Shown here piece by piece: positions 1-48,536 of a DNA stretch of 64,000 nt. Location: positions 47,211-111,210 of IMG/VR virus record IMGVR_UViG_3300028920_000043; one strand, written 5' to 3'. This stretch comes from a virus. How positions within the stretch are numbered: position 1 is the first letter of the stretch; every line of letters starts with the position of its first letter. Both the position numbers and the translations under genes were made by a program. Below the pieces are notes generated by a model. It was given only the letters and a program-made list of their open reading frames with translations. It was not told where the DNA came from and did not search any database.

Positions 1-1383
1 CAGAGATCCTAAATAATCATAAGATATCTCTCCGTCTTCCTCAAGCTCTATAGAATAAGGCTCAGTTGATGGAGTAAAGCTTGCGATATGACGAGCGATT
101 CCATTGGAGAATCTAATCTCGTCATAGAATCCATCCATGGCTGAAAGCACTCCACCGTCAGATGTGGTGATGTTTGGAAATCTAAACTCGCCTGAGAAGT
201 TAGAAAATGTTATAGAGAGTGGTGCCGTTCCAAGAAGATCACCATCCTTGAAAGCATACACAGTATTTCCAAACCGACAGATTTCAAAATGTACCCACTC
301 TTCTCCTGATCCAAACCCTGGTGACCAATCAATGCCCACTCCGAAAGGCGTATCCGCGGATTCTCCGTTTACAAAAATATCAGAATTGCCACCAGCATTA
401 TAAGGGTAAACATAAATATAATTAGCAGCATCTTGTCTTTGGCTGAAGCCTGCCACTCTATCATCAGTTGAGTACAATGGGTAGAACCAAAAATCAATCG
501 TCCAGTCACCATTCAAAAACCAATCATCAGAATCTGGAATAGCAAAATACGAAACACTGTCAAAGCGTTTCCATAGGGATCCAAGTCCAAACTTCTTCAC
601 ACTCTTAATCAGTTTGGCTTGAGGTAATCCTGATGAAGTAAATACGTGTCCGGTATCATCCGTAAATGGAGTCGGATTGTCTGTTGTTTTTGGCTGGACT
701 AAAACTTTTGTATTTCCATCAACCGTGAACTTCGTAGTCGGCTTGGAAAAGTTTGTGGTGTATCGAGCATTATCACTAATCCGCAGAACTGCCATATGTC
801 CTTGCCAGGGTCTTACAATATTCTGCTTTCTTGCAAGATGAAACGTTCCACCACTGAAACTAGGAATGGTATCGGAATCCGTAGCCGTTCCAATGCTCGT
901 ACCATCCACAAACATTTCATAAGACGTTCCTTGCTTCACTACTGCCAAATGATAATACGTGAACTGATTCAAGCTAGTTGCTTTTGAGATATCTATGATT
1001 GTTGCACCACCGCTGACCACCGTGAATCTCAGATTAGCCCCATCATACCAAAAGCCCCAAGCATTGTTGTCATCAATTCTATATCCACAGATGCCATTAT
1101 CAACCGGCCACGAAATCGGATTGTAATTGTTGAACACGTAAGTCTCAACCGTAAAGTCTGTTCCGGTGAGATCAAAATCAGAATCGGAAGGAGAGTTGAA
1201 TCTATAACCACTGCTGAAGTACAGAATCCCTTCACCGTCCGTGAACGGATGGCGATATGCAGCGCACTGATTTTGACAAGTGACAGCATGATCCGAAGTA
1301 CTGAAATCTTTCAGACTCTGTTGCTTATCGTCTTCATCACAATGAAGAATCAGTTTGGTATATTCATCAATTCCGCCAGCCAT
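1..1383 (-). CDS. LamG-repeat tail adhesin, 3' end beyond window
   Basis: Open from an ATG at 1383 to the window edge (461 codons, no stop). An AGAGGT ribosome site lies just upstream, and the start overlaps the end of the preceding sulfotransferase by 17 nt. It begins MAGGIDEYTKL, nearly the same opening as the 1241-residue LamG protein at 2563-6288. Two concanavalin/LamG-like segments follow (roughly residues 10-210 and 215-440), each with the FTVE(T/F) strand, a FVDG or KDG hairpin and a closing IARxxxxFTP motif. At the edge the sequence reads DGEISYDY, the start of the 14-residue repeat that fills the C-terminal part of the paralogue. I infer a carbohydrate-binding adhesin on the tail or particle surface. 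The family assignment is good; the ligand is unknown. Confidence 0.85.
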   Translation of the reverse strand, partial: MAGGIDEYTKLILHCDEDDKQQSLKDFSTSDHAVTCQNQCAAYRHPFTDGEGILYFSSGYRFNSPSDSDFDLTGTDFTVETYVFNNYNPISWPVDNGICGYRIDDNNAWGFWYDGANLRFTVVSGGATIIDISKATSLNQFTYYHLAVVKQGTSYEMFVDGTSIGTATDSDTIPSFSGGTFHLARKQNIVRPWQGHMAVLRISDNARYTTNFSKPTTKFTVDGNTKVLVQPKTTDNPTPFTDDTGHVFTSSGLPQAKLIKSVKKFGLGSLWKRFDSVSYFAIPDSDDWFLNGDWTIDFWFYPLYSTDDRVAGFSQRQDAANYIYVYPYNAGGNSDIFVNGESADTPFGVGIDWSPGFGSGEEWVHFEICRFGNTVYAFKDGDLLGTAPLSITFSNFSGEFRFPNITTSDGGVLSAMDGFYDEIRFSNGIARHIASFTPSTEPYSIELEEDGEISYDYLGSL

Positions 1384-2014
1384 CGTCTACTACCTCTTGG
1401 AATGCTGTATTAATAACAGAAGCATAAGCCTTTTCTATCTGAACTCCTGTCGGATTCAATTTCAAAAACTTAACTATTCTGTCAATTTCATATTTCTTAT
1501 TTCTCAATATTCTCTCGAAACTGCAATGGAGCACTGGATAAGCTCCATCATTCTCTCGTACCCAATTTATTATCTCCGTATAATCCCTCAAGCGATTGAG
1601 CATCGTCCCACTCAATGGAGCATCGTCAGCGTCTCGGTAGTGTATGGATTGCGCCATTGCAAACACATCTCTCCAGACACAGATGACATAAGGATTCCTC
1701 ACTGATGAAATAATCTGCTCTATGTAAGTATAGAGTAACTGATCCTTCCAGCCCCATACGTTGTAAGTTTTGTTTCTTTCTTCAATAATCGGTTTTATCT
1801 TATCACCGATCTCGCTGTGCTTGCCTTCAAAAGCCAATGGGTAACTCTCCCGAGTAAACGTCCAGTCCTCATAATCGTAACCAAACCAGGACGGCTCGAA
1901 CTCTTCAGTCTTTCCCATGAAGATTCCGAGATGATCCATGATCTTCGCCACGCTGGACGTTCCACCCCTACCCAGCCCCATTACTAATATAGTCTGACAG
2001 TTTGTATTTTCCAT
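1367..2014 (-). CDS. Sulfotransferase-like protein (downstream copy)
   Basis: About 215 residues from the ATG at 2014. An in-frame upstream extension to 2107 exists but lies inside the previous gene. The N-terminus has a PAPS-type P-loop, VMGLGRGGTSS, and a later VWRDVFAMAQS segment fits the 3'-phosphate binding region (Arg...Ser) of sulfotransferases; VWGWKD and SFER are also shared with the neighbour. Members move sulfate from PAPS to a hydroxyl or amine, often on a carbohydrate. The gene overlaps its paralogue upstream (1968-2573) and the LamG gene downstream, so the pair is coupled to adhesin genes. The substrate is not visible; a glycan made by the phage's own glycosyltransferases is my inference. 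Another P-loop kinase-like role cannot be excluded. Confidence 0.72.
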   Translation of the reverse strand: MENTNCQTILVMGLGRGGTSSVAKIMDHLGIFMGKTEEFEPSWFGYDYEDWTFTRESYPLAFEGKHSEIGDKIKPIIEERNKTYNVWGWKDQLLYTYIEQIISSVRNPYVICVWRDVFAMAQSIHYRDADDAPLSGTMLNRLRDYTEIINWVRENDGAYPVLHCSFERILRNKKYEIDRIVKFLKLNPTGVQIEKAYASVINTAFQEVVDDGWRN

Positions 2015-2573
2015 TATCGAAATCAACCAATCTCTTTCTGTTGAACCCAACCAATGCCTTCTCAACTCTACTCTCATCAATATCCAAAAACGCCAACATC
2101 TTTTCAACTTCTCGTTTCGGATTCCGTATTAAGCGCTCGAAGCTCAATAGTAAAAATGGATACGAACTTTCAGAAATGAAATCCAAAATCTTTTGATATA
2201 TTACCAAACGACTTCGGATGAACGATTTTGGAACATACTTAACCTTGTCTCTGTTTGTAACCGAATCAAATGCCGCTATAGGATCTCTGAATACAAAAAT
2301 CAATCTTGGGTTTCTAATCTCGTGAATAATCTCCAATCGATTAACCAAGAACGGATCCTTCCAACCCCAAATGTCAAACTGTTTATTCCGCTCTTCAATC
2401 TTAACGCGCATCTCATCCAGACTCTTTCCTACAAAATCTATATCCTCGAAATTTCCAGCCTCCTTGAATTGATAACCAAAGAATAATCCGGCACTGATGA
2501 GTATGCTGGCAATGGCAGAAGTGCCACCTCTTGCCGTTCCAAGAATAACAATTGTCTTTTCGTTAGTCAACAT
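1968..2573 (-). CDS. Sulfotransferase-like protein (upstream copy)
   Basis: 201 residues. The N-terminal P-loop IVILGTARGGTSA is typical of PAPS-dependent sulfotransferases, followed by FDIWGWKDPFL and IFVFRDPIAAFDS, where Arg and Ser match the 3'-phosphate site, then LLSFERLIRNP. Overall order and spacing match the downstream gene, so the two are tandem paralogues. The ATG at 2573 overlaps the end of the LamG gene by 11 nt, indicating translational coupling. Predicted to be cytoplasmic: no signal peptide or membrane helix is seen. The target is probably a sugar or tyrosine on a phage or host surface component; this is inferred from context only. Confidence 0.75.
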   Translation of the reverse strand: MLTNEKTIVILGTARGGTSAIASILISAGLFFGYQFKEAGNFEDIDFVGKSLDEMRVKIEERNKQFDIWGWKDPFLVNRLEIIHEIRNPRLIFVFRDPIAAFDSVTNRDKVKYVPKSFIRSRLVIYQKILDFISESSYPFLLLSFERLIRNPKREVEKMLAFLDIDESRVEKALVGFNRKRLVDFDNGKYKLSDYISNGAG

Positions 2574-5500
2574 TTACCAATACATCATCCAATAAAACAT
2601 CAGGCGTTCCCCCTTGTCCCTGATCCCAATAAATACGATACTTAACAACATCCCCGGAATTAGATCCTTGCCACGTCAGAAATGCTTTATCACCCACTTG
2701 AGAATAATCGAAAGTTCTGGTACTCCAGGTAAACGGTTTGGCAATTACATCTATAATATACTTGCCTCCGCGTGCCATGCCTCCTATTACTCGTCTGAAA
2801 TCATCTTCCTCTTTTATGTTCTCTGCATACAGCGCACCATTCCGATACACGTCAAATAATACTTGCCCTGCATACCCCGCTGGCTTGCTCGTGTAGTCCC
2901 AGGTTGCTATTACTGAATCTTGCGAAGCAGGATGTTGAATTACTTTTATCCAATCCATCCACTCCTCTATCATATCATACACGAAAGAACCGTCCTTCAC
3001 CGCGGACTGATTGTACTGATACAGCAAGTTTCCATCTTTGTAAAGGGGCCCAGTATACATGTAAAAGATCGGACCGTCTACCTGTAATAATTGAATCAAC
3101 TGATAGGCAAATGCTCCATTCTTCGCCACATCCAGAACTGTATCGTACACGATAGAACCATCTTTTATCAACGTCCCCTTGTAGGCATATGCTATATTGC
3201 CATCGATCTCGAACCGGTTGATTATATCATATAGAATTCCACCATCTTTTTTGATGTCATTTAGAATTCTATAGAGTACTTGCGCGTCTTTGATGGGAAC
3301 GCCTGAATATCGATATAATAGACTTCCATCTTTCACCACTGACTTAACATAATCATAAAGTACTTGTCCATCCTTCAGGTACTCATTAATATACTTGTAA
3401 AGAATTCCTCCATCGGCATGTGGGTATTGTTGATAGTAGTCATAGACAACTTCAGCATCCTTTACCAAATTGGAAAGATAATCATAAACAACTTGACCGT
3501 CCTTACTTAATTCTTTTAGAATCTCATATAGTATATCGGAATCTTTTGAAAGCTTAGAATGATAGTCATATAGAATTGGTCCATCTGATTTTATCTTCCC
3601 ATCGTAACCATATAAGATATCTCCATCACTTCCTATGAAGACATCCCCAATAGCGTAAGTAATAGGACCATCCGATGTCCACTCTTTTGTGTATTCAGAA
3701 TTCGGTGGCGTAAAATCGGAAGTCCATCGGGCGATCCCTTTGCTGATCCGCGGTTCGTCTATCCTTCCAGCCAAATAATTCCCATCCCAGCGTCTGCCGT
3801 AGTAAACACCATTCATATCCACGCTGTTCGAATTCGACCAGTTGGATCCCTTCTGCACGCCATCCACAAAGAATTTAACGGTGCCGCTGGTCCTTATCAT
3901 CGCCATGTGCATCCATTCGCCTATTTTTATATCTGAATCAGAAAACTTTGTTGACGATCCTCCCAGCATAACATCCCACCGATTACCCGCCTTGAATGGT
4001 TGAATATAAAGTTGATTGCTGGTAATAGAACTGATGAACATATCAGTGGCGGCTTGGGCGTCCAAAAGTAGCCACCCTTCAACTGTGAAATCTCCTGTTC
4101 CAAAATTCCAATCATCGTGGTCGGCAATAGAAAGATAATCGGTGGTGCCATCAAATATACACGATCCTCTCCCAAATCTTCCGCAGGTTCTTACTTTTAC
4201 ATTTCCATAAGGTCTCAATGCTCGATTGCTGCTAGAGCTATCAATTACACCGCCACCATGTATTAATAACTTTGTGTAGGAATCAGCAGTGTACTTTGAT
4301 GTTTCTGGTGTAAAGCCTGAAGTCCATCTGGCTATCCCTCTTGAGACTCTAAACTCCGTAATTCTGCCGGTCAAATCCATCGTACCGTTTCCCCACTCTC
4401 CTATTTTCTTTGCTTCATCCTTAGTCACGATACTACCAGAAACAGTAATATCAATATCCTTAACCCCGTTTATGAACGTCATCCAATTATTACCGTTTCT
4501 AACAGCGGCGAAATGATTCCAAGTATTCAAGGTTAAGGAGGTAGACCCTATACCATTACCGCCCGGATCCGCATTTATTAAATTCCATGAACTCCCGTTA
4601 CCAGATACCCAAAGATTAATATTTCGCGTTCCTTGATAATGATAGTCAAATCCAAACCAGTAATCTGTCGATCCAGCAAATAGAGCGAATCTGCCTTCTA
4701 CCGTTGGATAAAACCAGAAATCAACGGTTAAGTCGTCTGATCCAAAATCAAAATCAGGAAAGTTTCTTATGGACAAATAATCATTGGATCCGCTAAAAAT
4801 CATCTCCCATTGATTATCCACTAGAGGCTTCGTTACTTTTACATAAGCATCTCCGGAACCAGTAATCGTATGGGAAGACCCTGATGAATCTTCCGGTGTC
4901 GTATCGCCTTCCACATCGTTGGCGTGGATTAATAGTTTTGTGTAAGAATCAGAAGAATATTGAGTGGACTGTGGTGTAAATGCGGAAGTCCACCTAGCCA
5001 CTCCTTTGGAAATTCTTATCTCGGTCAGATACCCTTTGAATACTCTGGAGGAATAATACGCGTCCCTACCAATCCCTAATAAGCTGTTTGGATCGTTTAC
5101 AGAACTGCTTCCAATATCTGAAGAAGCACTTCCCGTTCCCATAGCAACGCCATTCAGGTAAGCCGTAACGGTGGAGCCATTTCTTACCAGAGCTATGTGG
5201 CTCCAAGCATCGAAAGTGACATTCTCTGCATCATAGGATCCGTAATCATCGGATCCAGAAAAGACAACCACTCTCCATTTACTTGAAGTATGTCCTATAA
5301 AAATTCCTATAGTTGTATTACCAGAACCGGATCGAGTAGTAAGAATGTACGGATCGGATGCCCCCGATATAGGATATACCAAGAAATCTAAAGTGAAATC
5401 ACCTGAACCCAATTCCCAATCTGCCGAATCTGGTGTAGTAAAATAATCTCCAGTTCCATCAAAAACCAGTATCCCTTTACCATCATTTAGCGGATGTGTT

Positions 5501-6288
5501 TTATCTGAATAAACATCTCCAACGGTTGTTACAAAATGTCCAGAATCACTTTCGTCTTTTGCGGCAACTGTCAGGTCTGGTTCATCAGTATGGATTAATA
5601 GTAGTGTATTGGCATCTTCTGCATACTGTGAAGTCTCTGGAGTGAAACCAGACGTCCAACGGGCTATATCGGAAATTCGCATTTCCGTGATATACCCTTT
5701 ATAATATCCATTTCCGCCATCCCATGTAGCCCATCCAAGTCTAACAGAACCACCATAAGCCAAATCCAAATCGGTCGAAATACTAGAATCAGAATCTTCC
5801 AAAGTACCATCTACAAATAGGTAAAGATTACTTCCACTCCTTACCACTGCCACATGATGCCAAGTCCCAGTAGCGAAAGTATTCGTTGATGTTAAAATTG
5901 GGTCACCTTCTGGTTGCCAATGAACACTTACCTTTTGAGCTTGTCCAACATTATTGTATCGAATAGCAAACCCATTAGCCCAACCGCCTTGAGTTGCTAT
6001 AAAACTAGGATAGTTTGCAGAAGATCCATCGTCCTTAAACCAAAAGTCAATCGTAAAGGCATTGCTTCCAAAATTAAAATCATCCGAATCTGGTATGTGA
6101 AGATAGTCACCGGACCCATCAAAGTACAAAGCACCCCTCCCGTCCAATAAAGGATGGGAGAAGTGCTGTGCATCTCCATTTGCAGTTATGGTATGATTTT
6201 GTCCCGAGTAGTCTTGGAAATTCTGACCAGCGTCGGGACCATTGAAATGATCAAGAAGTTTCGTGTATTCATCGATTCCTACAGGCAT
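2563..6288 (-). CDS. Large adhesin: four LamG domains, 17 KDG-x-x-x-Y repeats, C-terminal Ig/FN3-like tail
   Basis: 1241 residues with a strong AGGAGA site before the ATG at 6288. Four concanavalin-like LamG domains occupy roughly residues 15-230, 235-450, 455-665 and 670-865; each has an FDGSGDY-type strand, a DFT(I/V)DFWF strand, a WHHVAVVR or equivalent strand and an ARWTSGFTPE linker. From about 870 to 1110 come 17 units of about 14 residues with the pattern (K/S)DGxxxYxY. The last 130 residues look like Ig/FN3-type beta domains (VIATWDYTS; FLTWQGSNSGDVVKYRIYW). LamG domains usually bind carbohydrates, so a receptor-binding or surface-decorating virion protein is likely. It is flanked by sulfotransferases and the partial paralogue at 1-1383. 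Confidence 0.88.
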   Translation of the reverse strand: MPVGIDEYTKLLDHFNGPDAGQNFQDYSGQNHTITANGDAQHFSHPLLDGRGALYFDGSGDYLHIPDSDDFNFGSNAFTIDFWFKDDGSSANYPSFIATQGGWANGFAIRYNNVGQAQKVSVHWQPEGDPILTSTNTFATGTWHHVAVVRSGSNLYLFVDGTLEDSDSSISTDLDLAYGGSVRLGWATWDGGNGYYKGYITEMRISDIARWTSGFTPETSQYAEDANTLLLIHTDEPDLTVAAKDESDSGHFVTTVGDVYSDKTHPLNDGKGILVFDGTGDYFTTPDSADWELGSGDFTLDFLVYPISGASDPYILTTRSGSGNTTIGIFIGHTSSKWRVVVFSGSDDYGSYDAENVTFDAWSHIALVRNGSTVTAYLNGVAMGTGSASSDIGSSSVNDPNSLLGIGRDAYYSSRVFKGYLTEIRISKGVARWTSAFTPQSTQYSSDSYTKLLIHANDVEGDTTPEDSSGSSHTITGSGDAYVKVTKPLVDNQWEMIFSGSNDYLSIRNFPDFDFGSDDLTVDFWFYPTVEGRFALFAGSTDYWFGFDYHYQGTRNINLWVSGNGSSWNLINADPGGNGIGSTSLTLNTWNHFAAVRNGNNWMTFINGVKDIDITVSGSIVTKDEAKKIGEWGNGTMDLTGRITEFRVSRGIARWTSGFTPETSKYTADSYTKLLIHGGGVIDSSSSNRALRPYGNVKVRTCGRFGRGSCIFDGTTDYLSIADHDDWNFGTGDFTVEGWLLLDAQAATDMFISSITSNQLYIQPFKAGNRWDVMLGGSSTKFSDSDIKIGEWMHMAMIRTSGTVKFFVDGVQKGSNWSNSNSVDMNGVYYGRRWDGNYLAGRIDEPRISKGIARWTSDFTPPNSEYTKEWTSDGPITYAIGDVFIGSDGDILYGYDGKIKSDGPILYDYHSKLSKDSDILYEILKELSKDGQVVYDYLSNLVKDAEVVYDYYQQYPHADGGILYKYINEYLKDGQVLYDYVKSVVKDGSLLYRYSGVPIKDAQVLYRILNDIKKDGGILYDIINRFEIDGNIAYAYKGTLIKDGSIVYDTVLDVAKNGAFAYQLIQLLQVDGPIFYMYTGPLYKDGNLLYQYNQSAVKDGSFVYDMIEEWMDWIKVIQHPASQDSVIATWDYTSKPAGYAGQVLFDVYRNGALYAENIKEEDDFRRVIGGMARGGKYIIDVIAKPFTWSTRTFDYSQVGDKAFLTWQGSNSGDVVKYRIYWDQGQGGTPDVLLDDVLVNVD

Positions 6289-6327: not shown

Positions 6328-6843
6328 TTATGACCCGGCTGTCTGGCCTTTAAGTCTCAATGTCGCCGGAACTGACGCGTCTGCCTGAGTACCTGCTGGA
6401 ATCGTTTGCTTCAACCAAACTCCTTGTGCTGATCCGGCAGTCAAGCTGCCACTGTTGGCAACATCGATTGCCGCGCCTTCTGATGGAGCGTCAGCAAATA
6501 CGATGTCACTGGGTGCAGTGAGCGGATTGGGAATACTCTTGGTATCATCGAGTGACGATGCCAATCCGATCTGAATCTGCCCAGCGTGCTCTTGTGCCTG
6601 AATCCAAACCTTCGATGCTGTGAGCGGTGTGGTTGCGTTCTTGTTCTTTGCGAATACCTTCTGGAACCGAATCACATCCGAACCGCCTGCTTCTTGTGCT
6701 GCGACTGTATAGAACACCTGACCCAATGTTCCATCCAGCTCTGTCTCTGAACCGTCTTCTCCGCCACCTGCCGGTGCACCATCACTGGGCGCCATCATTG
6801 ACGAAAGAATCCACAATAGATCACTTGCGACTACTGGAGACAT
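6328..6843 (-). CDS. Putative virion surface/tail protein, unknown family
   Basis: 171 residues. I chose the ATG at 6843 (MSPVVASDLL) because GGAAAGGAGG lies right before it; an upstream in-frame codon would include that site. After a Gly/Asp-rich linker (about residues 18-35) the sequence reads like a beta-sandwich: GQVFYTVAAQEAGGSDVIRF, then VWIQAQ, and a C-terminal LKQTIPAGTQADASVPATLRL that resembles the end of structural beta proteins. It lies between a glycosyltransferase/DUF115 gene (23-nt overlap) and the LamG adhesin. I do not recognise the family; a small structural or fibre-base protein is a context guess. Confidence 0.6.
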   Translation of the reverse strand: MSPVVASDLLWILSSMMAPSDGAPAGGGEDGSETELDGTLGQVFYTVAAQEAGGSDVIRFQKVFAKNKNATTPLTASKVWIQAQEHAGQIQIGLASSLDDTKSIPNPLTAPSDIVFADAPSEGAAIDVANSGSLTAGSAQGVWLKQTIPAGTQADASVPATLRLKGQTAGS

Positions 6844-8749
6844 TCGTTTCCTCCTTTCCAAGTTCTGTCAAACTTTTCACCTTGATATTGGGGCCATATA
6901 AAATTCCCGCATCGGTGATATTAAAAAACTCAATTTGCTTATAAGCGCTTGTCAATTCTACCAAGGTTTCTCGCATCTCGTTATAGAGCAGATTGGTAAT
7001 TACTGCTCCGTCTTTAACATCCTTGGCAATCAATAAACCTTCTTTCTGAATATCCTCATATCTTATCGTCTCATCGTAATACTTTTTACCGCCGGTGTAT
7101 GCCAAATCAACTCCACCAATAAGAATCTTTTTGCAACCCATACCGATCAAACAACTGATACCGGTAAATACAACGGATAAGGCAGATCCGAGAATCGTCA
7201 GTTTAACTTCATCCAGTATGTTAGGATGTACCGATCCAATTCCCATAGTATGGAAAAATCTCTTCTTACCCTTCCACGCTTTAATCACTTCAGGGTGAAG
7301 TACTGACGACGCCAGCATCTCATGCTTCGATGTATCCACTCCATCAAAATGCCTTACCACATTATCCTCTGGATGGATTGCAATAAAGTAGTCTGGCTCT
7401 ATACCCCACTCACACATAATCCTGAAACCTGAATTAGCACCTATTACTATGCGCTTGGTTCTTCCCATCCCCAGAAATCCCTTCAAATCGTCTTTAATAT
7501 TATTAACTGATGGTGCGGAGGAGATCAATACTCCCACCTTATCCTCAGACGATTTGAATAGATCATCCAGAGTTTTCGATTTGGAAAGCTCAGGTTTATT
7601 CCTCTTGAAGTTTTCTGCCCAAACATTCTTCCACGTATTCATGGTTAAATCATTCACCGCTTCTCTTGCATTTCCCAACGTAACTGGTACCATAACTCTA
7701 TTCTCATCAGCGCCAGTAAACTTCAAAACATCTTTGGCTCTGTTTTCATAAGTATGATTTTTTAGAACGTGACTTCTTGCTCGTGCAATCAACTGCTCAC
7801 GTTCTTTTCTGTTCTTCATGTAGTGCTCTATGATCTTCGGTATCTCGTCTATCTCATCATAAAGTGCTACAATATCATCCGGAAATAGCTCCTTGACTGC
7901 TTCACGCTTTTTCCATGTCAGCAATAATGCTCCTGCCGCGGGCACTTCAAATACTCTCGGAGATACCGTGGTAGATAAAATCCCCGGATTGGTTCTTCCG
8001 TATTCAGAAACCATTTCGTTTCTGGGAATATCCAATGCTATCTTTGTACCGGCATCGAACTTCGCCATTTCTTCTATTGATACGCTTCCCCTTCTCCAAA
8101 TAGAATTCAAATAATCCGACTTGAAATTTCTTCTTGAGTTTCCAACGATCTTCAAGCGGTACCGTTTCAATTCCTTTTCTAGCTTATCCAGTGCATCCAT
8201 TCTTTCCGCGAATAATGATCCGCCAATTAAGACATCAGACAAATAGTTTCTGGGAACGCGGCGTGGGTAAAATACATTAGGATCCACAGCAGTGGGTAAG
8301 TACATCGTCTTATCTTCACCATGTACTTTTACTGTATTCTTTTCATTGGTAAAGACATAATCATAGTAAGGCGTGAATTCTTTTGAAACATTTACCTGCT
8401 GAGGCTCATCTGTCAAATATACTGCTGTTTTGATTCCAAGCTTCTTTACATTGGTTATTATCCCAGTATGAATATTGGCACCATGAATGACAAAGACAAA
8501 ATCTATTGCATACCTCACGCAATAGTTCAAGATGCCTTGAGCAATAAGCTCAAAGAAATCATTCTTGGACATATTCAATTCTGGATCGAATATCGAGTTT
8601 ACTTGAATCGCTTTTTGAAAGAAATCCAAAACCCGATTGGTTTCATAATCCCAGACAGTATGCCCAAGACGCCGAAATGCTTCTGAAAAGCCTTCACCAA
8701 CATCCTTCGTACTAAACGCAAATCCACTACCCACCATTAAAATATTCAT
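6821..8749 (-). CDS. Fusion: CgeB-like glycosyltransferase + DUF115/MAF-type glycosyl-transfer domain
   Basis: 642 residues. The N-terminal half (1-360) is a GT-B-like glycosyltransferase: MNILMVGSGFAFSTKDVGEG, a central VYLTDEPQQV, then VFEVPAAGALLLTWKKREAV and a nucleotide-binding DEIDEI region, as in CgeB-type enzymes. The C-terminal part (about 400-610) matches the DUF115/motility-accessory-factor family: GVLISSAPSVNN, VIGANSGFR, EPDYFIAIHPED and GGVDLAYTGGKKYYD. DUF115 proteins occur in flagellin and surface glycosylation and use nonulosonic-acid-type donors. The pairing suggests one polypeptide that attaches or extends a glycan on a protein. It sits between tail genes and the adhesins, so tail proteins are plausible acceptors (inference). 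Confidence 0.8.
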   Translation of the reverse strand: MNILMVGSGFAFSTKDVGEGFSEAFRRLGHTVWDYETNRVLDFFQKAIQVNSIFDPELNMSKNDFFELIAQGILNYCVRYAIDFVFVIHGANIHTGIITNVKKLGIKTAVYLTDEPQQVNVSKEFTPYYDYVFTNEKNTVKVHGEDKTMYLPTAVDPNVFYPRRVPRNYLSDVLIGGSLFAERMDALDKLEKELKRYRLKIVGNSRRNFKSDYLNSIWRRGSVSIEEMAKFDAGTKIALDIPRNEMVSEYGRTNPGILSTTVSPRVFEVPAAGALLLTWKKREAVKELFPDDIVALYDEIDEIPKIIEHYMKNRKEREQLIARARSHVLKNHTYENRAKDVLKFTGADENRVMVPVTLGNAREAVNDLTMNTWKNVWAENFKRNKPELSKSKTLDDLFKSSEDKVGVLISSAPSVNNIKDDLKGFLGMGRTKRIVIGANSGFRIMCEWGIEPDYFIAIHPEDNVVRHFDGVDTSKHEMLASSVLHPEVIKAWKGKKRFFHTMGIGSVHPNILDEVKLTILGSALSVVFTGISCLIGMGCKKILIGGVDLAYTGGKKYYDETIRYEDIQKEGLLIAKDVKDGAVITNLLYNEMRETLVELTSAYKQIEFFNITDAGILYGPNIKVKSLTELGKEETNVSSSRK

Positions 8750-12693: not shown

Positions 12694-13956
12694 TTAAGTT
12701 AACAAAGAGCTGACTGTCTCAATCCTAGAATCCCATGAGCATTCAAGAACTTCTTTATACAGATTTTCAGCTCTTAAATTTCTTTCAGAGCTATCTCGCT
12801 CTACTGCTTTCATTTTATCAACCAAATCATCCTCATCTACAACTGCAAATTCTTCTCCTTTATAATAATCAGAAGTACCCAAATAAAGATCTTTATCCGC
12901 TTCCCGAAATCCTTTCACGCGCACCAAATAAGAATTGCCGTGGTTCAAATAGTCTCGGAATCCACCCCAATCTGTTTGAATCACTGGCTTCTTCATAGCA
13001 CCGAATTGCAATCCGGGCAACCATGTACTTTCTCCCTTGGAAGCGCCGATACCACAATCCATTCTTGCCATGAGATGCGGCATTAAATTCGGATGAAGCG
13101 AAACATCACAGATCTTTATTGTAGGAATCTGTGAGTTAAGGAAATCAGACGTTATATCAGAATACTCTTTTTGTATCGTCCAATGATCCTTTATGAATCT
13201 CTTCCAACCATAAGGCCGATTTGAATACTTGGCAAACATTAAAAGAGCCACGTCCTTCCGGCCTTCAAAAGCACGAATAAAACTTCTTACTATTTCCTTC
13301 ACTCCTTTTCTCGCATTCCATGATCCAACGAATCCAAAAACAAACTTATCCTGCAATCCTTCAATCTTCATGGGTTCCACGTTTGGATTATACTTGTTAA
13401 TATCGACACCCAAACGAACTACCTTTACCGAGCATCCGGTTACTTTCAAATACTCGAATCTCACCTTGTCCAATGGCGTAGGCATCCAAACTTCGTCCAC
13501 CTGATCAAACCATTTCTTCATATACTTTGGAAACTTTCGGCTCTCCGTCATCGTCCACGCTATTTTTGTTTTTACTTTCCGCTTCCTTTCATGCCACATC
13601 CAACCAGGGCCGGCAATCAATAGCATAGTAGCCTTTTTTGGATTGACTCTCCGGAATGTATAGCGTAGAATTCGCTGATACTCAAATGGATCCAGATCTA
13701 TCAGCGATGGTATTTTCTCAAGCTGTATGTGAAACTTATGACTCTCATCCAATCGTGTCAATACTTCTCTCGTATGCTCCGCATATCCTCCAAGAAAATC
13801 AGTGAAGCCTTTTATCAATAATGGAGTGCTGTCAATATTAGACAATGAAAAGAAATTAAATGTCCGATCATTACAAGTCACGGATTCCAAGCTCTCTGGA
13901 TTGAGCGTTGGAAAATCAGACTTCTTTTGGTTTACTTTTCTTGTATCTAACTTCAT
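12694..13956 (-). CDS. GT4-family glycosyltransferase inside the tail operon
   Basis: 420 residues, GT-B type. Visible features: FLGGYAEHTREVLTRL near residue 55, a hinge with VVRLGVDINKYNP, FVFGFVGSWNARKGVKEIV at the start of the nucleotide-binding half, and GIGASKGESTWLPGLQFGA with MKKPVIQTDWGG near the C-terminus, the usual E-x7-E-like donor site region. The ATG overlaps the stop of the gp10-like gene (ATGA), so it is translationally coupled to head-tail genes. The acceptor is unknown; the position between joining protein and tail tube genes points to virion glycosylation. No membrane helices. Confidence 0.85.
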   Translation of the reverse strand: MKLDTRKVNQKKSDFPTLNPESLESVTCNDRTFNFFSLSNIDSTPLLIKGFTDFLGGYAEHTREVLTRLDESHKFHIQLEKIPSLIDLDPFEYQRILRYTFRRVNPKKATMLLIAGPGWMWHERKRKVKTKIAWTMTESRKFPKYMKKWFDQVDEVWMPTPLDKVRFEYLKVTGCSVKVVRLGVDINKYNPNVEPMKIEGLQDKFVFGFVGSWNARKGVKEIVRSFIRAFEGRKDVALLMFAKYSNRPYGWKRFIKDHWTIQKEYSDITSDFLNSQIPTIKICDVSLHPNLMPHLMARMDCGIGASKGESTWLPGLQFGAMKKPVIQTDWGGFRDYLNHGNSYLVRVKGFREADKDLYLGTSDYYKGEEFAVVDEDDLVDKMKAVERDSSERNLRAENLYKEVLECSWDSRIETVSSLLT

Positions 13957-15898: not shown

Positions 15899-16936
15899 TC
15901 AAAAAATATCACCGCACTCCGCAAAAAAGCTTTCCATATCTTTCATCAGGTTCAGAAACTTTATGTTGTAATATTTTGGATTGAGAAGATCAGAACGATC
16001 TGGAAACTCACTCATCAACTGTTTCCACAATGTCTGTACCGTTTCAATCACTCCCGTCTTTGGCGCATCGAATCCAATTAACTGTTTAAGCCTCTCTCCT
16101 GATATACTGTAACTTCTGACTTCCCTGCTGTCGTAGTCCGGAATCACTTCTATAGGAATATCCGGCTCTACTGTATGTATGCAATGCCGAACATAATTTC
16201 CAAGCTCAGAAATACGGTAGTTCTTATGCATTACATTTACTGTCTGATACTTTATATTATCTATCGGCATTTCCAGTAGCTTTGTCCAAACTTTCGCCAC
16301 GTCTACAACGTTCACCAATGGACGCCAACACTCCCCTCCGGCTACCAACAAAATCCGACCAAGAAGTAATGCGTCCTTGACCATCGTATTCACCACCAGA
16401 TCAAACCGCGGCCGGATAGATGCACCCATCACTGTCGCTTGCCGAAGCAATGTAGGTTTGAGTGTTCCGTGCTCCGCGATCTTTAACATTCCGCATTCCG
16501 CATTGTACTTTGCTTCCGCGTAGAATGATTTAGGATCTACAGGACTTTCTTCCGTGAGAATATTCGTATCCTGGAATCCATACACTGCGGCAGAAGACGC
16601 AAAGATGAAACGCTCAATTCCAGCCTTCGCGCACTCCTCCGCGAACTTCACAGCACCAACATTGTTTATGGCATCGTTGGCCTCCGGATTAAAATTCGCC
16701 ATTGGATCGTTTGACAATCCAGCAAGATGGCAAACGGCATCAAAGCCTTTCAAATCCTCAGCGGTGAATGATCTGAAATCCTTTCGGATGAACTCAGGCC
16801 GACCACTCAGCTCATTTAGATATTCTGTTCCGAACATTCCTTTATCCACAATCGTTATGGCATAGCCTTCGCCAAGAAGAATGTCAGACAGCACTGTACC
16901 AATATATCCTAGACCACCTGTTACCAAAATCTTCAT
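15899..16936 (-). CDS. NAD-dependent sugar epimerase/dehydratase (extended SDR)
   Basis: 345 residues. Rossmann motif VTGGLGYIGTVLSDILLGEG at the N-terminus, FDAVCHLAGLSNDP, then FASSAAVYG (catalytic Ser region) and FYAEAKYNAE (YxxxK catalytic pair). The C-terminal VAGGECWRPLVNVVDVAKVW segment binds the sugar nucleotide. This is the extended SDR class that acts on NDP-sugars (C4/C3 epimerase or 4,6-dehydratase type). It closes the sugar island and ends just before the connector gene. The exact substrate cannot be read from sequence. Confidence 0.88.
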   Translation of the reverse strand: MKILVTGGLGYIGTVLSDILLGEGYAITIVDKGMFGTEYLNELSGRPEFIRKDFRSFTAEDLKGFDAVCHLAGLSNDPMANFNPEANDAINNVGAVKFAEECAKAGIERFIFASSAAVYGFQDTNILTEESPVDPKSFYAEAKYNAECGMLKIAEHGTLKPTLLRQATVMGASIRPRFDLVVNTMVKDALLLGRILLVAGGECWRPLVNVVDVAKVWTKLLEMPIDNIKYQTVNVMHKNYRISELGNYVRHCIHTVEPDIPIEVIPDYDSREVRSYSISGERLKQLIGFDAPKTGVIETVQTLWKQLMSEFPDRSDLLNPKYYNIKFLNLMKDMESFFAECGDIF

Positions 16937-17447: not shown

Positions 17448-17942
17448 TTATTTGAACTGTATATCCCACACGTCCTTTCCCAGGACATCCCAAGAAATGC
17501 GTTCTTCATCAGGATTCTTTTTATTATATATCTCTGATCCGGTCGAGCAGAGAATAGTGTTCTGTTCCAAACTCATCCAGCCATGCCAGATTGTGGGAGG
17601 CACCACAAGCAGTTTCGGAGTTCTCGCGTGAATGTTGAAAATCTTCACCCGGTCCATATTGATATCCGGATCCCCAGACTTAGCCACCAATTCTGCTCCC
17701 GGGATATTATCTATCAATATGAACTTCGCGGATCCGTTGACAATGCAAAAGTAATCCCAGAGAATCCGGTGACGATGAAACGCCCTGACCGTCATCGATT
17801 GCATATCGCCTACCATATAGACCTGACCAAACTTCTCAAAGAACTCATCAGTCTCGTGGACGATTTCAAACAACCAACCGCGGTCATCCTCCATGACCTT
17901 CAAATCCACAAGCTTAACTCTATCCCACAAATCCATTTCCAT
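17448..17942 (-). CDS. RmlC-like sugar 3,5-epimerase / cupin
   Basis: 164 residues, GTAAGGAGA site before the ATG. The cupin pattern is visible: MEDDRGWLFEIV at the N-terminus, VYMVGDMQSMTVRAFHRHR, then YFCIVNGSAKFILIDN and LLVVPPTIWHGWMSL. RmlC-type enzymes epimerise C3/C5 of 4-keto-6-deoxy sugar nucleotides. Here AFHRHR replaces the common GLHYQ, so a relative of RmlC or a sugar 3,4-ketoisomerase is possible. It lies two genes from an RmlD-like reductase. Confidence 0.77.
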   Translation of the reverse strand: MEMDLWDRVKLVDLKVMEDDRGWLFEIVHETDEFFEKFGQVYMVGDMQSMTVRAFHRHRILWDYFCIVNGSAKFILIDNIPGAELVAKSGDPDINMDRVKIFNIHARTPKLLVVPPTIWHGWMSLEQNTILCSTGSEIYNKKNPDEERISWDVLGKDVWDIQFK

Positions 17943-17962: not shown

Positions 17963-19060
17963 CTAGAACTTCCTTCCTATAAAATAATGCAACCAAGTAT
18001 TATCTCCCACCGCGAACTTTGCATTATCGTACTCAATAAAGTAACGCTTGAGTATCGACAAAGCAAACTTGGGCGGGAAGAAATATTGGATCTCGTGCGG
18101 AATATAATCAACTGCTTCCGCTGCCCAGAAAATCAATCCCAGTACTCCGCCGGGTTTGAGTACTCTATTGTATTCACTTATTGCTGATTCTATTTCCTCC
18201 GGATGTATATGATCCAACGTTGACAGATCTAACACCAAATCGAATTTACCATACCAATCTTTTTTCAAGAACCTGACGTCTCCCACTTCCGCATGGATAT
18301 CTGAGAAGTCCGCCTCATTGAATACATCAATATAATACTTTTCAATATCAATAGTATACTTCTCTCCGGTACATTTCAAACGTGGGAAAACACCTCCGGG
18401 CGGGAATCCCATTATCTCGTTATATACGTCTGTCTTCAATACTGTTGGAAGAGCCTTTGAAATGTTCACGCAGTACTGACTGAACCAAATATACTCCTCC
18501 GTAATTCCTTGGCGCCATTTATGTGTTGCGAATACCTGCTTAGTCAATTCATAAATCTGATAATGACGTTTTCCAATAAACGAATCCTCTACCGTTATTG
18601 ATTCTTCCCTTACTAGAGTGTACCATGGGAGCTCTTTTTCAAGACGAGTAAAAAATCCATAGTGCTCTTGCCATGCTATAATTGACTCCACCGCGATATA
18701 CCTAGGACGGAAGCGCCGTACCAGATCTAAGAACGCAAGGTAACCGTATTCACTTTCGTCTTCGTTCTTTGTGAAGTAGCCACCACCCGCACCGATATAT
18801 AAAAGAATATCGCATTGCGTTACTTCTTTAACAAACTCACCATCTGTCTGGCATTTGAAATCAATATCTTCTCTGCAATCAAGATCTCGCGTATCATTTC
18901 CAATATACGCTTTGAAATCATCATCCAGATATTTATGAAGACGCGCAGAGCCACAGTTCAAATCAATAATGACTTTGTTCTTCGTCTTGTCTTTCAAATA
19001 ATTAGCAATGGGAATGAATCTCTCATCCCATTTCTCAGTATCAAGATATTCCCAAGCCAT
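17963..19060 (-). CDS. Two-domain SAM methyltransferase
   Basis: 365 residues. The C-terminal half has a class I methyltransferase core: AEVGDVRFLKKDWYGKFDLV, DLSTLDHIHPEEIE and YNRVLKPGGVLGLIFWAAEA. The N-terminal half has a second, partly degenerate core with VIIDLNCGSARLHKYL and CDILLYIGAGGGYF. The arrangement suggests a methyltransferase that duplicated or a regulatory N-terminal domain. It starts at the stop of the RmlD-like gene (GGGATAAATGG). Context suggests O- or N-methylation of a sugar. Confidence 0.75.
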   Translation of the reverse strand: MAWEYLDTEKWDERFIPIANYLKDKTKNKVIIDLNCGSARLHKYLDDDFKAYIGNDTRDLDCREDIDFKCQTDGEFVKEVTQCDILLYIGAGGGYFTKNEDESEYGYLAFLDLVRRFRPRYIAVESIIAWQEHYGFFTRLEKELPWYTLVREESITVEDSFIGKRHYQIYELTKQVFATHKWRQGITEEYIWFSQYCVNISKALPTVLKTDVYNEIMGFPPGGVFPRLKCTGEKYTIDIEKYYIDVFNEADFSDIHAEVGDVRFLKKDWYGKFDLVLDLSTLDHIHPEEIESAISEYNRVLKPGGVLGLIFWAAEAVDYIPHEIQYFFPPKFALSILKRYFIEYDNAKFAVGDNTWLHYFIGRKF

Positions 19061-19771
19061 TTATCCCACCCTCAATCCTCTCCACTTACTACTATCCAAA
19101 GACGTATCGGGAGGAACATTGAATTGGACATCTTGTATTGACATTTCTTTTACTTCCGGAGATAATCTCTTTGCCAGATCATAAAAGGATTTTCTTGTGG
19201 TACCTATATGAATAAGTCCTAATATATCTTTCCTCACCGCTTTGATAATCTCCTTAGCAATAACATCCACGGTATCGAAGGATGTAAACTTATCAATGAA
19301 TGCTCCCGGATAAGGCCATTTATCTTTAGAACAAAAAGATGTCCTAATAATTAAACCATTCGGATAATTCTCTACTGCTACTTCTCCCAATCTTTTTGTC
19401 ACTGCATAAAAATTAACTGGATGAGGTAAGTCATTTTCTTTATACATCCCTCCTTCTTTTAATCCATCGAAGACATAATCAGTAGATATATAGATCAATG
19501 GAATATCATATGCCGAACAAATCTTGACCAGATTTTCGGTACCGACTTTATTTACTTGAATTGCCGCATCTTTGTTCTGATCACACACCGGAGGAGACGT
19601 AAGAGCAGCACAATGCAAAACCTTATCAGGTTTATGCATTACTATCTCCTTCTTTGCTTTGTCAAAGTTGGTAACATCCAGTATAGAACGTGCTGGATAG
19701 TACCATTCGGAACGCTGAGCTTTCAGCTCTGTTCCCAATAATCCTGAACCACCGGTTACTAAGACTTTCAT
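19061..19771 (-). CDS. RmlD-like dTDP-4-dehydro-sugar reductase
   Basis: 236 residues. MKVLVTGGSGLLGTELKAQ is the NAD(P) Rossmann motif; KPDKVLHCAALTSPPVCDQN, YISTDYVFDG and FYAVTKRLGE (YxxxK) are RmlD-family signatures. It is shorter than typical RmlD of about 290 residues. RmlD reduces dTDP-4-dehydrorhamnose to dTDP-rhamnose; a 6-deoxyhexose route with the neighbouring RmlC-like protein is likely. RmlA and RmlB homologues are not in this window, though the epimerase-type SDR nearby could act as dehydratase. Confidence 0.83.
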   Translation of the reverse strand: MKVLVTGGSGLLGTELKAQRSEWYYPARSILDVTNFDKAKKEIVMHKPDKVLHCAALTSPPVCDQNKDAAIQVNKVGTENLVKICSAYDIPLIYISTDYVFDGLKEGGMYKENDLPHPVNFYAVTKRLGEVAVENYPNGLIIRTSFCSKDKWPYPGAFIDKFTSFDTVDVIAKEIIKAVRKDILGLIHIGTTRKSFYDLAKRLSPEVKEMSIQDVQFNVPPDTSLDSSKWRGLRVG

Positions 19772-19775
19772 GGCA

Positions 19776-20336
19776 TTATCTCACTCTATGTTTTGCTATA
19801 CTGCCTATGAATCCTACTTCATGTACTATATTGAATAAATGCTTTCTGGCAAACTCCAGAGTTATATTCATAGGCCCCAATTCATTTCTTAAGGTTGCAG
19901 GACTCTTGACATAGTGATACTCAAATCTTTCCAGAACGAAAGGTAAAGTACCCGCCGTAAACCATGCGTCTGAAAAGTTACAAGAAATATGCTCAAATAC
20001 AGTTTCCGAGAGTGCATACTTATGACCAGGACAAAGTGCCATATCATTTCGCGCACATGGTACCCAAAGTTCCAAACGAGCTCTATCTCTGCATACTCTC
20101 ACTATCTCATGGAGTATAGGTTGAAGAGGATCGATATGCTCCAGAAAGTGAGAAGAATAAATCTCACCAACACAGTTATCTGGCAGTGGTATTCCCTTTG
20201 TCAAATCACAAACATGATCCACTCCTGGAAGTTGGCAAAAATCGAATCCGAAATAGCCTTCACGTTTTTTGCTACCGCATCCCAAATCTATCTTTTCTAC
20301 ATTATGCTCTTTCGGATCTATAAACCCTGATGGCAT
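19776..20336 (-). CDS. SAM-dependent methyltransferase (class I)
   Basis: 186 residues from the ATG at 20336, chosen for its GAGAGGATCAG ribosome site; a longer in-frame form to 20387 would overlap the glycosyltransferase by 70 nt. KIDLGCGSKKREGYFGFDF is motif I; YSSHFLEHIDPLQPILHEIV and ARLELWVPCA are later core motifs. Similar small methyltransferases are often found beside glycosyltransferases in O-antigen loci. Likely methylates a sugar residue in the glycan built by this island. Confidence 0.78.
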   Translation of the reverse strand: MPSGFIDPKEHNVEKIDLGCGSKKREGYFGFDFCQLPGVDHVCDLTKGIPLPDNCVGEIYSSHFLEHIDPLQPILHEIVRVCRDRARLELWVPCARNDMALCPGHKYALSETVFEHISCNFSDAWFTAGTLPFVLERFEYHYVKSPATLRNELGPMNITLEFARKHLFNIVHEVGFIGSIAKHRVR

Positions 20337-23044
20337 TCTCTGATCCTCTCTCTTGATTGTTTTCTTGTATTCAATTGCTTCTCCCATCTCTTTCGGAATA
20401 TCAATGCATCAGAATCCGACTGCAGTCCCGAACGACTAAGAGACTCAAAATGAAATCCCTTAGACCAGGGAGTATACATAATCTTATATCCTTTTGATTT
20501 TGCTTTCATGCAGAAGTCAATATCGTTGAACTCAATCGCCATCTTCTCATCGAGTACAACTCCATCTTCCAATACTTTTATATTGATTAATGCACAAGCA
20601 AACGTAACAGCGTCCACCTCCCTTACAAAGTTAACGGCTGAAGAATTACAATCGAATTGGTAGTAATCGTGAATAGCACCTATATCCGATACCAAGCTGA
20701 CTCCTGCATGCTGAATTCTATAACCATTCAGTATCCATGAGAAGTTAAAGAACATAGGCGCTCCTAAAGAATGCTTCAAAGGATATAATAATTGAGATCC
20801 GACTATGCCCACTTTCTCATCTTGTGTTACAATAGATAAGAGTTCATACAACCAACCTGGTCCAACTATCACGTCATCATTAAGCAACACCACATGAGTA
20901 TAGCCCTTGGGGATATTATCTAGCAAGAAATTATTCATCTTCGAATAATTGAACTGCTCCTTCCATTCCCAATTAGTATATCCATTTGCTTCGATGATCT
21001 TATGGTTCGCCATCGTTCCGGGTGAGTCGTCAATATGATGGTGCATAACAAAGACATGATAATCCAATCCGACCGTTTCACGTTGAACCGAATCCAAACA
21101 CGCTTTGAAATGCTGCGTCTTGTCCTTCGTCAAGATAAGTATGGCTACTTTTGGCTTTCCAATCACATCTCGATAGACGCGATAGAATCCGGCAGTCGAT
21201 GTAGGCAAAAGTGATCCCTTGAAGTTGACTCGCTTCATAGAATCACGAACTGCTTTCTTTGCAAACTCATGAGCAAGCAGTTGTGGTTCGGCGCGCCCTG
21301 ACGATGTATTGCTTCCGTGTATTCGCCAGTCAACCAATATCTTTGGAATGTGTCCGATCTCGTTGTCCTTCAGTGCTTCGGTTATCCTCAAGATGAAATC
21401 ATAGTCTTGAGATCCTTCATACTCCGGCCGCGGATAACCTACTTTCTTGATTAACTTTCGGTCAAAGCATTTGAAGTGATTAATAAACATTCCTTGCCAA
21501 AAGAAATCACGATTCCAATCCGGCTTCAATACCTTCTCGAATACCTTACCGGATGCATCTATCTTCTGCTCGTTTGTATAAATCAAACGGTACCGCGGAT
21601 TGTCCTCAGCAAACTTCTCTATGCTCGCGAGTAAATTGGTATGTGCAATGTCATCCGAATCCAGGAATCCAATGAAATCGCCAGTTGCTTCTTCCAATGC
21701 TTTCTTCGTTGCAACAGGTATGCCTGAATTCTTTTTCAGATTGAATAACTTTATCCGTTCATCCTTCTCACTTATATGCTCTAGCAAATCCGAAGTGGAT
21801 TTATTTGAACCATCATTTACTATTATCAACTCCCAATTAGTATAGGTTTGATCCAATACGGAATTGACCATATCACGCAAATACTTTTCCGGAGTGTTGT
21901 AACAAGGAGTGATTATAGAAAACTTAAGATCGCCCGACCTCTTTTCTGGTTCATTGGATATAAAAGCCGTATCCACATTCTCAACTAAATCCACTACCGG
22001 TTTGCATCTATCCGCATAATCAAAGAATGAAAAGCGTTTGGCGAATCTGGCGCTTATTTCCGCTTGTGTAGGATCGTCCGGAGCATTTAATACTTTATTT
22101 ACTTTATCCGCCAATATCTCAAAATCTTTTAAGGGTGCATAAGTTACCAATCCCCCAAATACTTCCTGATACACAGGCAGATCAAATGCAACCACCGGTG
22201 TTCCACAATACAACGCTTCCGCCACTGTCAATCCAAACCCTTCAAAGCACGATGGTGCAGCAAATACCTTTGCGCGCTTCAATGCTTTGAACTTATCTGC
22301 ATCATTGCTACCATCAAAGTATCTGACTTCATATCCTTTTGACTGCGCCGCCGCCTCTATTGCTTCGCGCTCTCCATTGGCCATCTGAGTCGTAAAGATA
22401 TCAAGATACGTCTGATCCTCTACACGTTTAAGGGATCTCACCAATTTCTGGAAGCCTTTGTGCGCCGCACTCCTTCCAACCATGAGAATGCTATTATCGC
22501 GTTTCTTGGGTTTTGGTGCCTTGTCTGCGGCTAAAGAATTGATTGCTGGAGGAATGATAAGCTGAGTAGCTTTAGATTCTGAATACCACTCATTAAAATA
22601 CTTCTTACCTTCCTCTGTGGAATGAATAATTACTGAGGCATCACTGAGAGCATTTCTCGTACCCTTCCAGAAATCATCTACCGTGTCATATCCTTCTCCA
22701 CGATACTCACGCATCCAATTAGGAGTATCAAAGAATAAGGCTACTAATGGTATTTGCTTGGAACGGGCGAAGTATGAAGCGTGCTCAAGGCCTTTGTATG
22801 GAGTTCCAATTACAAAGTCAAACTCATGGAAAAGAAATTCCTTTCCCCAATTTTCTCCTTCTATCCATGAGATTCTTCTTACCGCTTCATACCCAAAGAA
22901 GTCGGAATGAAAGGATGGCATTAAGTTAGTTACATAGAAAACATCAATTCCACTGTTTGCCAATGACAATGCAAACAGTAAAGCATGATAACGCCCTCCG
23001 GTATACTTGCCCCGGAAGTTCTCGGAAAATAAGATCGCTTTCAT
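20318..23044 (-). CDS. Trifunctional glycosyltransferase (GT4-GT2-GT2)
   Basis: 908 residues. Residues 1-350: GT4 with GGRYHALLFALSLANSGI, ILMVGRSAAHKGFQKLVRSL and the donor site SCFEGFGLTVAEALYCGTPV. Residues 365-610: GT2 with FSIITPCYNTPEKYLRDMV, VLDQTYTNWELIIVNDGS and DFIGFLDSDD. Residues 635-890: second GT2 with PKVAILILTKDKTQHFKACL, HVVLLNDDVIVGPGWLYEL and a FNDIDFCMKAK acceptor-side motif. Such fusions make repeating or branched glycans. It follows the capsid gene after a terminator. The GT4 part is a paralogue of the gene at 47291-48535. Confidence 0.9.
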   Translation of the reverse strand: MKAILFSENFRGKYTGGRYHALLFALSLANSGIDVFYVTNLMPSFHSDFFGYEAVRRISWIEGENWGKEFLFHEFDFVIGTPYKGLEHASYFARSKQIPLVALFFDTPNWMREYRGEGYDTVDDFWKGTRNALSDASVIIHSTEEGKKYFNEWYSESKATQLIIPPAINSLAADKAPKPKKRDNSILMVGRSAAHKGFQKLVRSLKRVEDQTYLDIFTTQMANGEREAIEAAAQSKGYEVRYFDGSNDADKFKALKRAKVFAAPSCFEGFGLTVAEALYCGTPVVAFDLPVYQEVFGGLVTYAPLKDFEILADKVNKVLNAPDDPTQAEISARFAKRFSFFDYADRCKPVVDLVENVDTAFISNEPEKRSGDLKFSIITPCYNTPEKYLRDMVNSVLDQTYTNWELIIVNDGSNKSTSDLLEHISEKDERIKLFNLKKNSGIPVATKKALEEATGDFIGFLDSDDIAHTNLLASIEKFAEDNPRYRLIYTNEQKIDASGKVFEKVLKPDWNRDFFWQGMFINHFKCFDRKLIKKVGYPRPEYEGSQDYDFILRITEALKDNEIGHIPKILVDWRIHGSNTSSGRAEPQLLAHEFAKKAVRDSMKRVNFKGSLLPTSTAGFYRVYRDVIGKPKVAILILTKDKTQHFKACLDSVQRETVGLDYHVFVMHHHIDDSPGTMANHKIIEANGYTNWEWKEQFNYSKMNNFLLDNIPKGYTHVVLLNDDVIVGPGWLYELLSIVTQDEKVGIVGSQLLYPLKHSLGAPMFFNFSWILNGYRIQHAGVSLVSDIGAIHDYYQFDCNSSAVNFVREVDAVTFACALINIKVLEDGVVLDEKMAIEFNDIDFCMKAKSKGYKIMYTPWSKGFHFESLSRSGLQSDSDALIFRKRWEKQLNTRKQSRERIRECHQGL

Positions 23045-30678: not shown

Positions 30679-30855
30679 TTAATTGTCATTGAATATTCTT
30701 GATCTTAACTCAACAAGAGTAGTGATTATAGAATCATCTGAAACTTCTGTAGTAATGACAGATTTCAATGGAACCTCCAGAGTTATTTCGCTTTCCAAGT
30801 CTACTTCAAAAGTTAAACGGCTTTTTAATGACACTATCTCTTTGCATACGGTCAT
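30679..30855 (-). CDS. Small unknown protein coupled to the PKD adhesin
   Basis: 58 residues, MTVCKEIVSLKSRLTFEVDL at the start and ELRSRIFNDN at the end. The ATG overlaps the upstream stop as TAATG, indicating translational coupling. Val/Glu-rich alternating pattern suggests beta structure. The motif LKSRIF at the end of the preceding adhesin and LRSRIF here are similar, but whether this means anything is unclear. Confidence 0.6.
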   Translation of the reverse strand: MTVCKEIVSLKSRLTFEVDLESEITLEVPLKSVITTEVSDDSIITTLVELRSRIFNDN

Positions 30856-47288: not shown

Positions 47289-47290
47289 GA

Positions 47291-48535: not shown

Positions 48536-48536
48536 T

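Follow-up and report, generated by a model that had tools for sequence, protein, structure and literature searches.

Paired sulfotransferase-like genes among the LamG adhesin genes of an environmental virus, and the possibility that phages sulfate their own particles

Sulfotransferase annotations have been described in viral genomes of marine and glacier origin (PMC10580990, PMC8290583); PMC10580990 names the family PF13469 and calls the function of the viral enzymes 'unclear'. Glycosylation of virions by phage glycosyltransferases (GTs) is reported for actinobacteriophages (Freeman et al. 2023, through passages of PMC12619734 and PMC13313380), RaxST/RaxX is the known case of bacterial tyrosine sulfation (PMC4216712, PMC6637879), and sulfotransferase motifs are outlined in PMC9372746. 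Here we describe two adjacent genes, ST-A and ST-B, that very probably encode sulfotransferases using 3'-phosphoadenosine-5'-phosphosulfate (PAPS), in a 64,000-nucleotide stretch of viral DNA (the window, bases 47211-111210 of G000, the IMG/VR virus record IMGVR_UViG_3300028920_000043 of 111,210 bases). Phage sulfotransferase annotations and virion glycosylation by phage GTs are already known, and the combination found here is a new variant; phrases of the type 'phage-encoded sulfotransferase' had no match in a full-text literature search of sources outside subscription journals.

The locus resembles described virion glycosylation in its phage-encoded GT and methyltransferase genes, here interleaved with virion genes, and in the particle modification proposed for them; it differs in that sulfotransferases are added. 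The earlier viral sulfotransferases (PMC10580990, PMC8290583) were isolated genes, whereas the present ones come with genomic context, fusions, a neighbouring adenosine-5'-phosphosulfate (APS) kinase and controls. Bacterial PF13469 enzymes from Leisingera, Sulfitobacter and Halioglobus, which are encoded in polysaccharide clusters, share a clade with the phage pair (support 99/98), carry the GxxRGGTS and WGWK motifs and are about 30% identical over most of their length, but they lie in chromosomal or plasmid surface-glycan clusters, whereas the phage pair is duplicated and sits between LamG adhesins. TPST1 and TPST2 provide the best solved folds, with 3'-phosphoadenosine-5'-phosphate (PAP), and share the K-D-P-F and R-x7-S cofactor motifs, but identity in the fold alignments is only 15-19%, and the phage proteins, at about 200 aa, are shorter than the solved chains, which have about 300.

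The sulfotransferase pair and its adhesin neighbours

The locus consists of four overlapping genes, given here in order of transcription:

LamG-1: 2563..6288, minus strand; tail-adhesin-like protein of 1241 aa with four LamG/concanavalin-A-like domains, sixteen short repeats and a C-terminal part
ST-B: 1968..2573, minus strand; very probable PAPS-type sulfotransferase of 201 aa, from Pfam, AlphaFold2 (AF2), Foldseek and a 27-sequence alignment
ST-A: 1367..2014, minus strand; paralogue of ST-B, 215 aa, from BLASTP, AF2, Foldseek and the tree
LamG-2: <1..1383, minus strand; runs beyond the window, complete protein of 806 aa at G000 46173-48593, with two LamG domains and a few DGxxxYxY repeats

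ST-B passes the Pfam cut-offs of both Sulfotransfer_3 (PF13469), with 30.3 bits against a cut-off of 27, and Sulfotransfer_1, with 27.8 bits against 22. ST-A reaches 19.8 bits for Sulfotransfer_3, under the same cut-off of 27, and its assignment therefore rests on the paralogue, the alignment and the fold. The two proteins are 35% identical in BLASTP (E 4e-36), far beyond chance, and are sisters in the tree with a support of 97/97. ST-B has a 5'-phosphosulfate-binding (5'-PSB) loop GTARGGTS (R15), the motif WGWKDPF (K72), a 3'-phosphate-binding (3'-PB) pair R96-x7-S104 and a candidate base, E43; the counterparts in ST-A are GLGRGGTS (R16), WGWKDQ (K90), R115-x7-S123 and E49. Across an alignment of 27 phage members, ST-A and ST-B among them, the residues G12, R15, G17, T18, S19, A22, G29, K72 and R96 (ST-B numbering) are invariant, and E43 and S104 are conserved in at least 90% of the sequences. 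From general knowledge of the superfamily, we take these conserved residues to be the 5'-PSB, lysine and 3'-PB positions together with the candidate catalytic base.

AF2 models of both proteins were of good quality by predicted local distance difference test (pLDDT) and predicted template-modelling score (pTM), with values of 86.8 and 0.84 for ST-B and 86.6 and 0.85 for ST-A. Foldseek searches of the PDB retrieved TPST2 as the best match in each case, with PAP bound for ST-B (E 2.2e-6, probability 1.00) and with E 1.5e-7 and probability 1.00 for ST-A; the leading folds were human TPST2 and TPST1, mostly PAP-bound, and sulfotransferases of the heparan-sulfate, SULT and bacterial types ranked next. 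The earlier note, made from the sequence letters, had proposed paralogous PAPS-type sulfotransferases and had named a P-loop kinase as the structural alternative. As far as prediction reaches, that alternative is excluded, and we rejected it on the fold ranking and on a profile search: the first kinase stands at rank 36 in each Foldseek search, after 35 sulfotransferase chains, and a sequence-only profile of the 27 phage homologues run against the PDB retrieved 2zq5 (E 7e-9), TPST1 (E 4e-7), TPST2 and other sulfotransferases. The proposal itself is backed by the 35% identity, the predicted folds and the conservation of the cofactor site, and ST-A and ST-B are very probably PAPS-type sulfotransferases, that is, enzymes that attach sulfate. 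That both are catalytically active is our inference.

The placement of two sulfotransferase genes between, and overlapping, two LamG adhesin genes had also been claimed, and the open reading frames (ORFs) and Pfam matches confirm it. LamG-1 matches Laminin_G_3 (PF13385) with four domains (E 2e-67, 226.5 bits) and LamG-2 with two (71.8 bits), both over the cut-off, and both proteins match PHROG tail/baseplate and virion structural families. The overlaps measure 11 bp between LamG-1 and ST-B, 47 bp between ST-B and ST-A and 17 bp between ST-A and LamG-2; for ST-A the ORF lister picks a TTG start at 2107, and the homologues favour the ATG at 2014. Because the Shine-Dalgarno sequences of the two LamG genes are clear (AGGAGAG, AGAGG) and those of ST-A and ST-B weak, the arrangement is consistent with translational coupling, short of proof, and through such coupling in an overlapping operon the two enzymes are probably made together with the tail adhesins.

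Relatives and their association with glycosyltransferases

Among 50,697 phage records none matched ST-A or ST-B, and three related viral sulfotransferase queries hit a single record, that of Pseudomonas phage Y4 (H24), which is marked UNVERIFIED, is unannotated and was not used. Exact-word scans of IMG/VR with ST-A and ST-B found no viral relatives. Broader alignments, one of five sequences and then a viral one, raised the yield to 11 and then 46 viral loci, a lower bound, as the scan depends on word patterns, with some near-copies among the loci. The earlier statement that sulfotransferases are rare in phages thus holds for isolates.

The bacterial relatives are about 30% identical and come mostly from marine Proteobacteria. 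Those of Leisingera, Sulfitobacter and Tateyamaria lie on plasmids in polysaccharide clusters, and those of Halioglobus in glycan clusters; the homologues adjoin GT, UDP-galactopyranose mutase and Rfb genes in these surface-polysaccharide clusters. In the tree, which was rooted by midpoint only, the 99/98 clade joins ST-A and ST-B with the bacterial enzymes and with two viral ones (L057 and L061), and the simplest history for the pair would be capture from bacteria followed by duplication. A further homologue of the phage enzymes lies among flagellin genes in a Rickettsiales metagenome-assembled genome (L064:4792-11111), which suggests, from gene context, sulfation of the flagellar filament or of a filament glycan.

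Across the 33 viral records that bear a sulfotransferase, G000 included, 22 have a GT2 or GT4 match, compared with 9 of 43 control contigs picked by an arbitrary 15-mer (length-blocked p 0.02); in the 10-100 kb class the counts are 18/26 and 8/29 (p 0.002). No control contig among the 43 had a sulfotransferase match, and an earlier control, built on relatives of one head protein, had given just 8 contigs. In some relatives the two activities appear to share a protein: L056 has a GT25 domain fused to a sulfotransferase, both over the Pfam cut-off, and L009, L048 and L049 have an N-terminal sulfotransferase with a sub-threshold GT2 match in the C-terminal half. GT25-sulfotransferase fusions were also seen in L055 and L058, from the same cluster as L056, the Pfam confirmation being for L056. 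Within records, sulfotransferase and GT genes lie near each other with p 0.006 when fused domains are counted, and since significance needs those domains we treat adjacency as supporting evidence only. APS kinase makes PAPS, and in L045 (7207-8594) an APS-kinase gene overlaps the start of the sulfotransferase gene by 4 bp, a pair that could form a self-contained unit for PAPS supply and use.

The window itself carries glycosylation genes, all on the minus strand:

6821..8749: two-domain GT, with Glyco_trans_1_2 (CgeB-like, PF13524, E 2.8e-24) and MptE-like (PF01973, E 5.4e-21) domains
12694..13956: GT4-family GT inside the virion module (PF13692, 29.5 bits)
15899..16936: NAD-dependent nucleotide-sugar epimerase/dehydratase (PF01370, E 1e-31)
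17448..17942: FdtA/RmlC-like sugar isomerase of the cupin type (PF05523 and PF00908, over cut-off)
17963..19060: methyltransferase-domain protein (PF08241, over cut-off)
19061..19771: RmlD-like sugar reductase (PF04321, E 8e-40)
19776..20387: methyltransferase (PF08241, over cut-off)
20318..23044: GT4+GT2 glycosyltransferase of 908 aa, adjoining the major head protein (PF00535, E 9e-34; PF00534, E 2e-20)
47291..48550: GT4 glycosyltransferase adjoining the terminase (PF00534, E 1e-17)

Between 12694 and 23044 the GT, nucleotide-sugar and methyltransferase genes are interleaved between the major head protein and the tape measure. Nearer the sulfotransferase genes, the GT at 6821-8749 lies two genes upstream, and its MptE-like half matches the NCBIfam model PseD (Maf) with E 2e-8, far under the NCBIfam cut-off. 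It is like the Maf/PseD flagellin-modification GTs in that match, and the Rickettsiales homologue of the sulfotransferases stands among flagellin genes; it is unlike them in its N-terminal CgeB-like GT domain and in its low score. As separate observations on the record, a single tRNA-Ser (GCT) gene lies within the virion module at 33687-33779 (minus strand), and ORFs at G000:C1 32499-35825 (L002) resemble QueC, QueD, QueE and FolE by eye, of the 7-deazaguanine type, which suggests DNA base modification.

Target of the predicted sulfation

We consider it the best explanation, at a probability of roughly 0.47 and so a little short of even, that ST-A and ST-B are host-PAPS-dependent enzymes that sulfate phage-placed glycans on virion proteins, most likely those of the tail or adhesins. 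ST-B and ST-A would be produced together with the tail adhesins from the overlapping operon; phage GTs, namely the Maf/PseD-like one at 6821-8749 and those encoded with the sugar-nucleotide genes of the virion module, would place glycans on virion proteins; the sulfotransferases would then transfer sulfate from host PAPS to hydroxyl groups of these glycans, and the particle, through its tail or adhesin proteins, would gain a negatively charged coat. The dependence on the host would follow from the lack of any APS kinase found in G000, for which reason phage-made PAPS was rejected for this record. The genes and their overlaps, the fold, the conserved PAPS-site positions, the paralogy and the interleaving of glycosylation genes with virion genes are computed results, and the glycan substrate, the virion location and the biological benefit are inferred.

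Because relatives are fused or clustered with GTs and the window has glycosylation genes of its own, glycan sulfation is the best-supported role, in line with the part of the earlier note that had the phage sulfating a glycan. The part in which its own LamG adhesin recognises the sulfated product did not stand: PF13385 describes a generic fold of the concanavalin-A type, and just 2 of the 33 sulfotransferase-bearing records, G000 being one, had a match over its cut-off, so a general partnership between LamG and sulfotransferases or sulfated glycans is unsupported and was rejected.

Several points weigh against the proposal of sulfated virion glycans. The genes of G000 are mostly read from one strand, so the position of the sulfotransferase genes is no proof of late expression; no APS kinase accompanies them; the proximity of sulfotransferase and GT genes is weak once fused domains are left out (p 0.067); the clade that holds ST-A and ST-B is without GT fusions; its nearest viral members, L061 and L057, have no GT2 or GT4 match; and the protein that directly adjoins ST-B, LamG-1, is rich in tyrosine repeats, while the closest folds are tyrosine sulfotransferases.

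The main competitor is the view that the enzymes modify a host surface glycan (lipopolysaccharide, capsule or exopolysaccharide), which would block superinfection or re-adsorption to debris or alter the receptor. The bacterial homologues do sit in surface-polysaccharide clusters beside GT, UDP-galactopyranose mutase and Rfb genes, and receptor modification by other phage-encoded enzymes is well established. Against this, the genes lie within a tail-adhesin operon and the virion block and not near an integrase or early region, the GT and sugar genes of the phage are spread among those for head and tail, and the closest viral relatives also belong to virion modules: in L061 the sulfotransferase gene stands between the tail sheath and the tape measure, and in L057 downstream of one or more head-morphogenesis genes. 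Other sulfotransferase genes (L018, L009 and L021) lie within a few kb of capsid, portal or terminase genes. G000 gave no integrase match, which leaves lysogenic conversion unsupported. Since the pair is in the tail-adhesin operon, its nearest relatives are in virion modules and an integrase match is lacking, the phage's own particle is favoured as the target, and we regard the host surface as an unlikely one.

A real alternative, ranked below the glycan and less likely than the host surface, is that the substrate is protein. LamG-1 carries the following element:

3013..3672, minus strand: sixteen tandem repeats of about 14 residues with the core DGx[IVL]LYDY, residues 873-1092 of LamG-1, from a motif scan

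In these repeats tyrosines stand beside acidic residues, and sulfation of them by ST-A and ST-B (with the few in LamG-2) would make a stalk or binding surface rich in sulfotyrosine. LamG-2 has a few copies of the motif, which is also seen at the end of the ORF at 30855-32486. The candidate substrate is adjacent to the enzyme genes and overlaps them, with regular tyrosine-acid motifs; PAP-bound TPST1/2 are among the best matches by fold and by profile, and TPST has the KDPF motif in common with ST-B; the virion modules that hold the nearest viral relatives show no GT2/GT4 match; and a bacterial tyrosine sulfotransferase, RaxST, is known (PMC4216712, PMC9372746). However, likeness to TPST stems from the cofactor site and says nothing of the substrate, the GTs and fusions of the wider family point to glycans, and motif spacing differs between TPST and polysaccharide enzymes (PMC9372746).

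More doubtful still is a role apart from virion or surface glycans, with a small molecule as the acceptor of sulfate or with some other metabolic function: one study counts sulfotransferases from viral metagenomes among auxiliary metabolic genes (PMC8290583), and the substrates of the superfamily are very diverse, but neither the genomic setting nor the GT association suggests metabolism. Least likely is that the pair is cargo of little function, a bacterial polysaccharide sulfotransferase that was captured and duplicated, as its 99/98 clade with marine proteobacterial enzymes would allow, since both copies retain the PAPS-site positions despite only 35% identity, as do many diverse viral sulfotransferases.

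Sulfation of virion glycans, the reading we prefer, also agrees with the position of the window's sulfotransferase and GT genes among head and tail genes. Dozens of divergent viral sulfotransferases conserve the PAPS-site residues, some fused to GTs, one overlapping an APS kinase and others in virion modules, and together they raise a hypothesis that can be tested, namely sulfation of phage particles by the phages themselves. If the tyrosine alternative were true, LamG-1 would be a virus-made sulfotyrosine adhesin. The relatives scattered among environmental viruses suggest that certain phages add sulfate to the particles they make; such a charged, sulfated coat could change how virions adsorb, aggregate and are recognised, and it would be an extension of the virion glycosylation already known.

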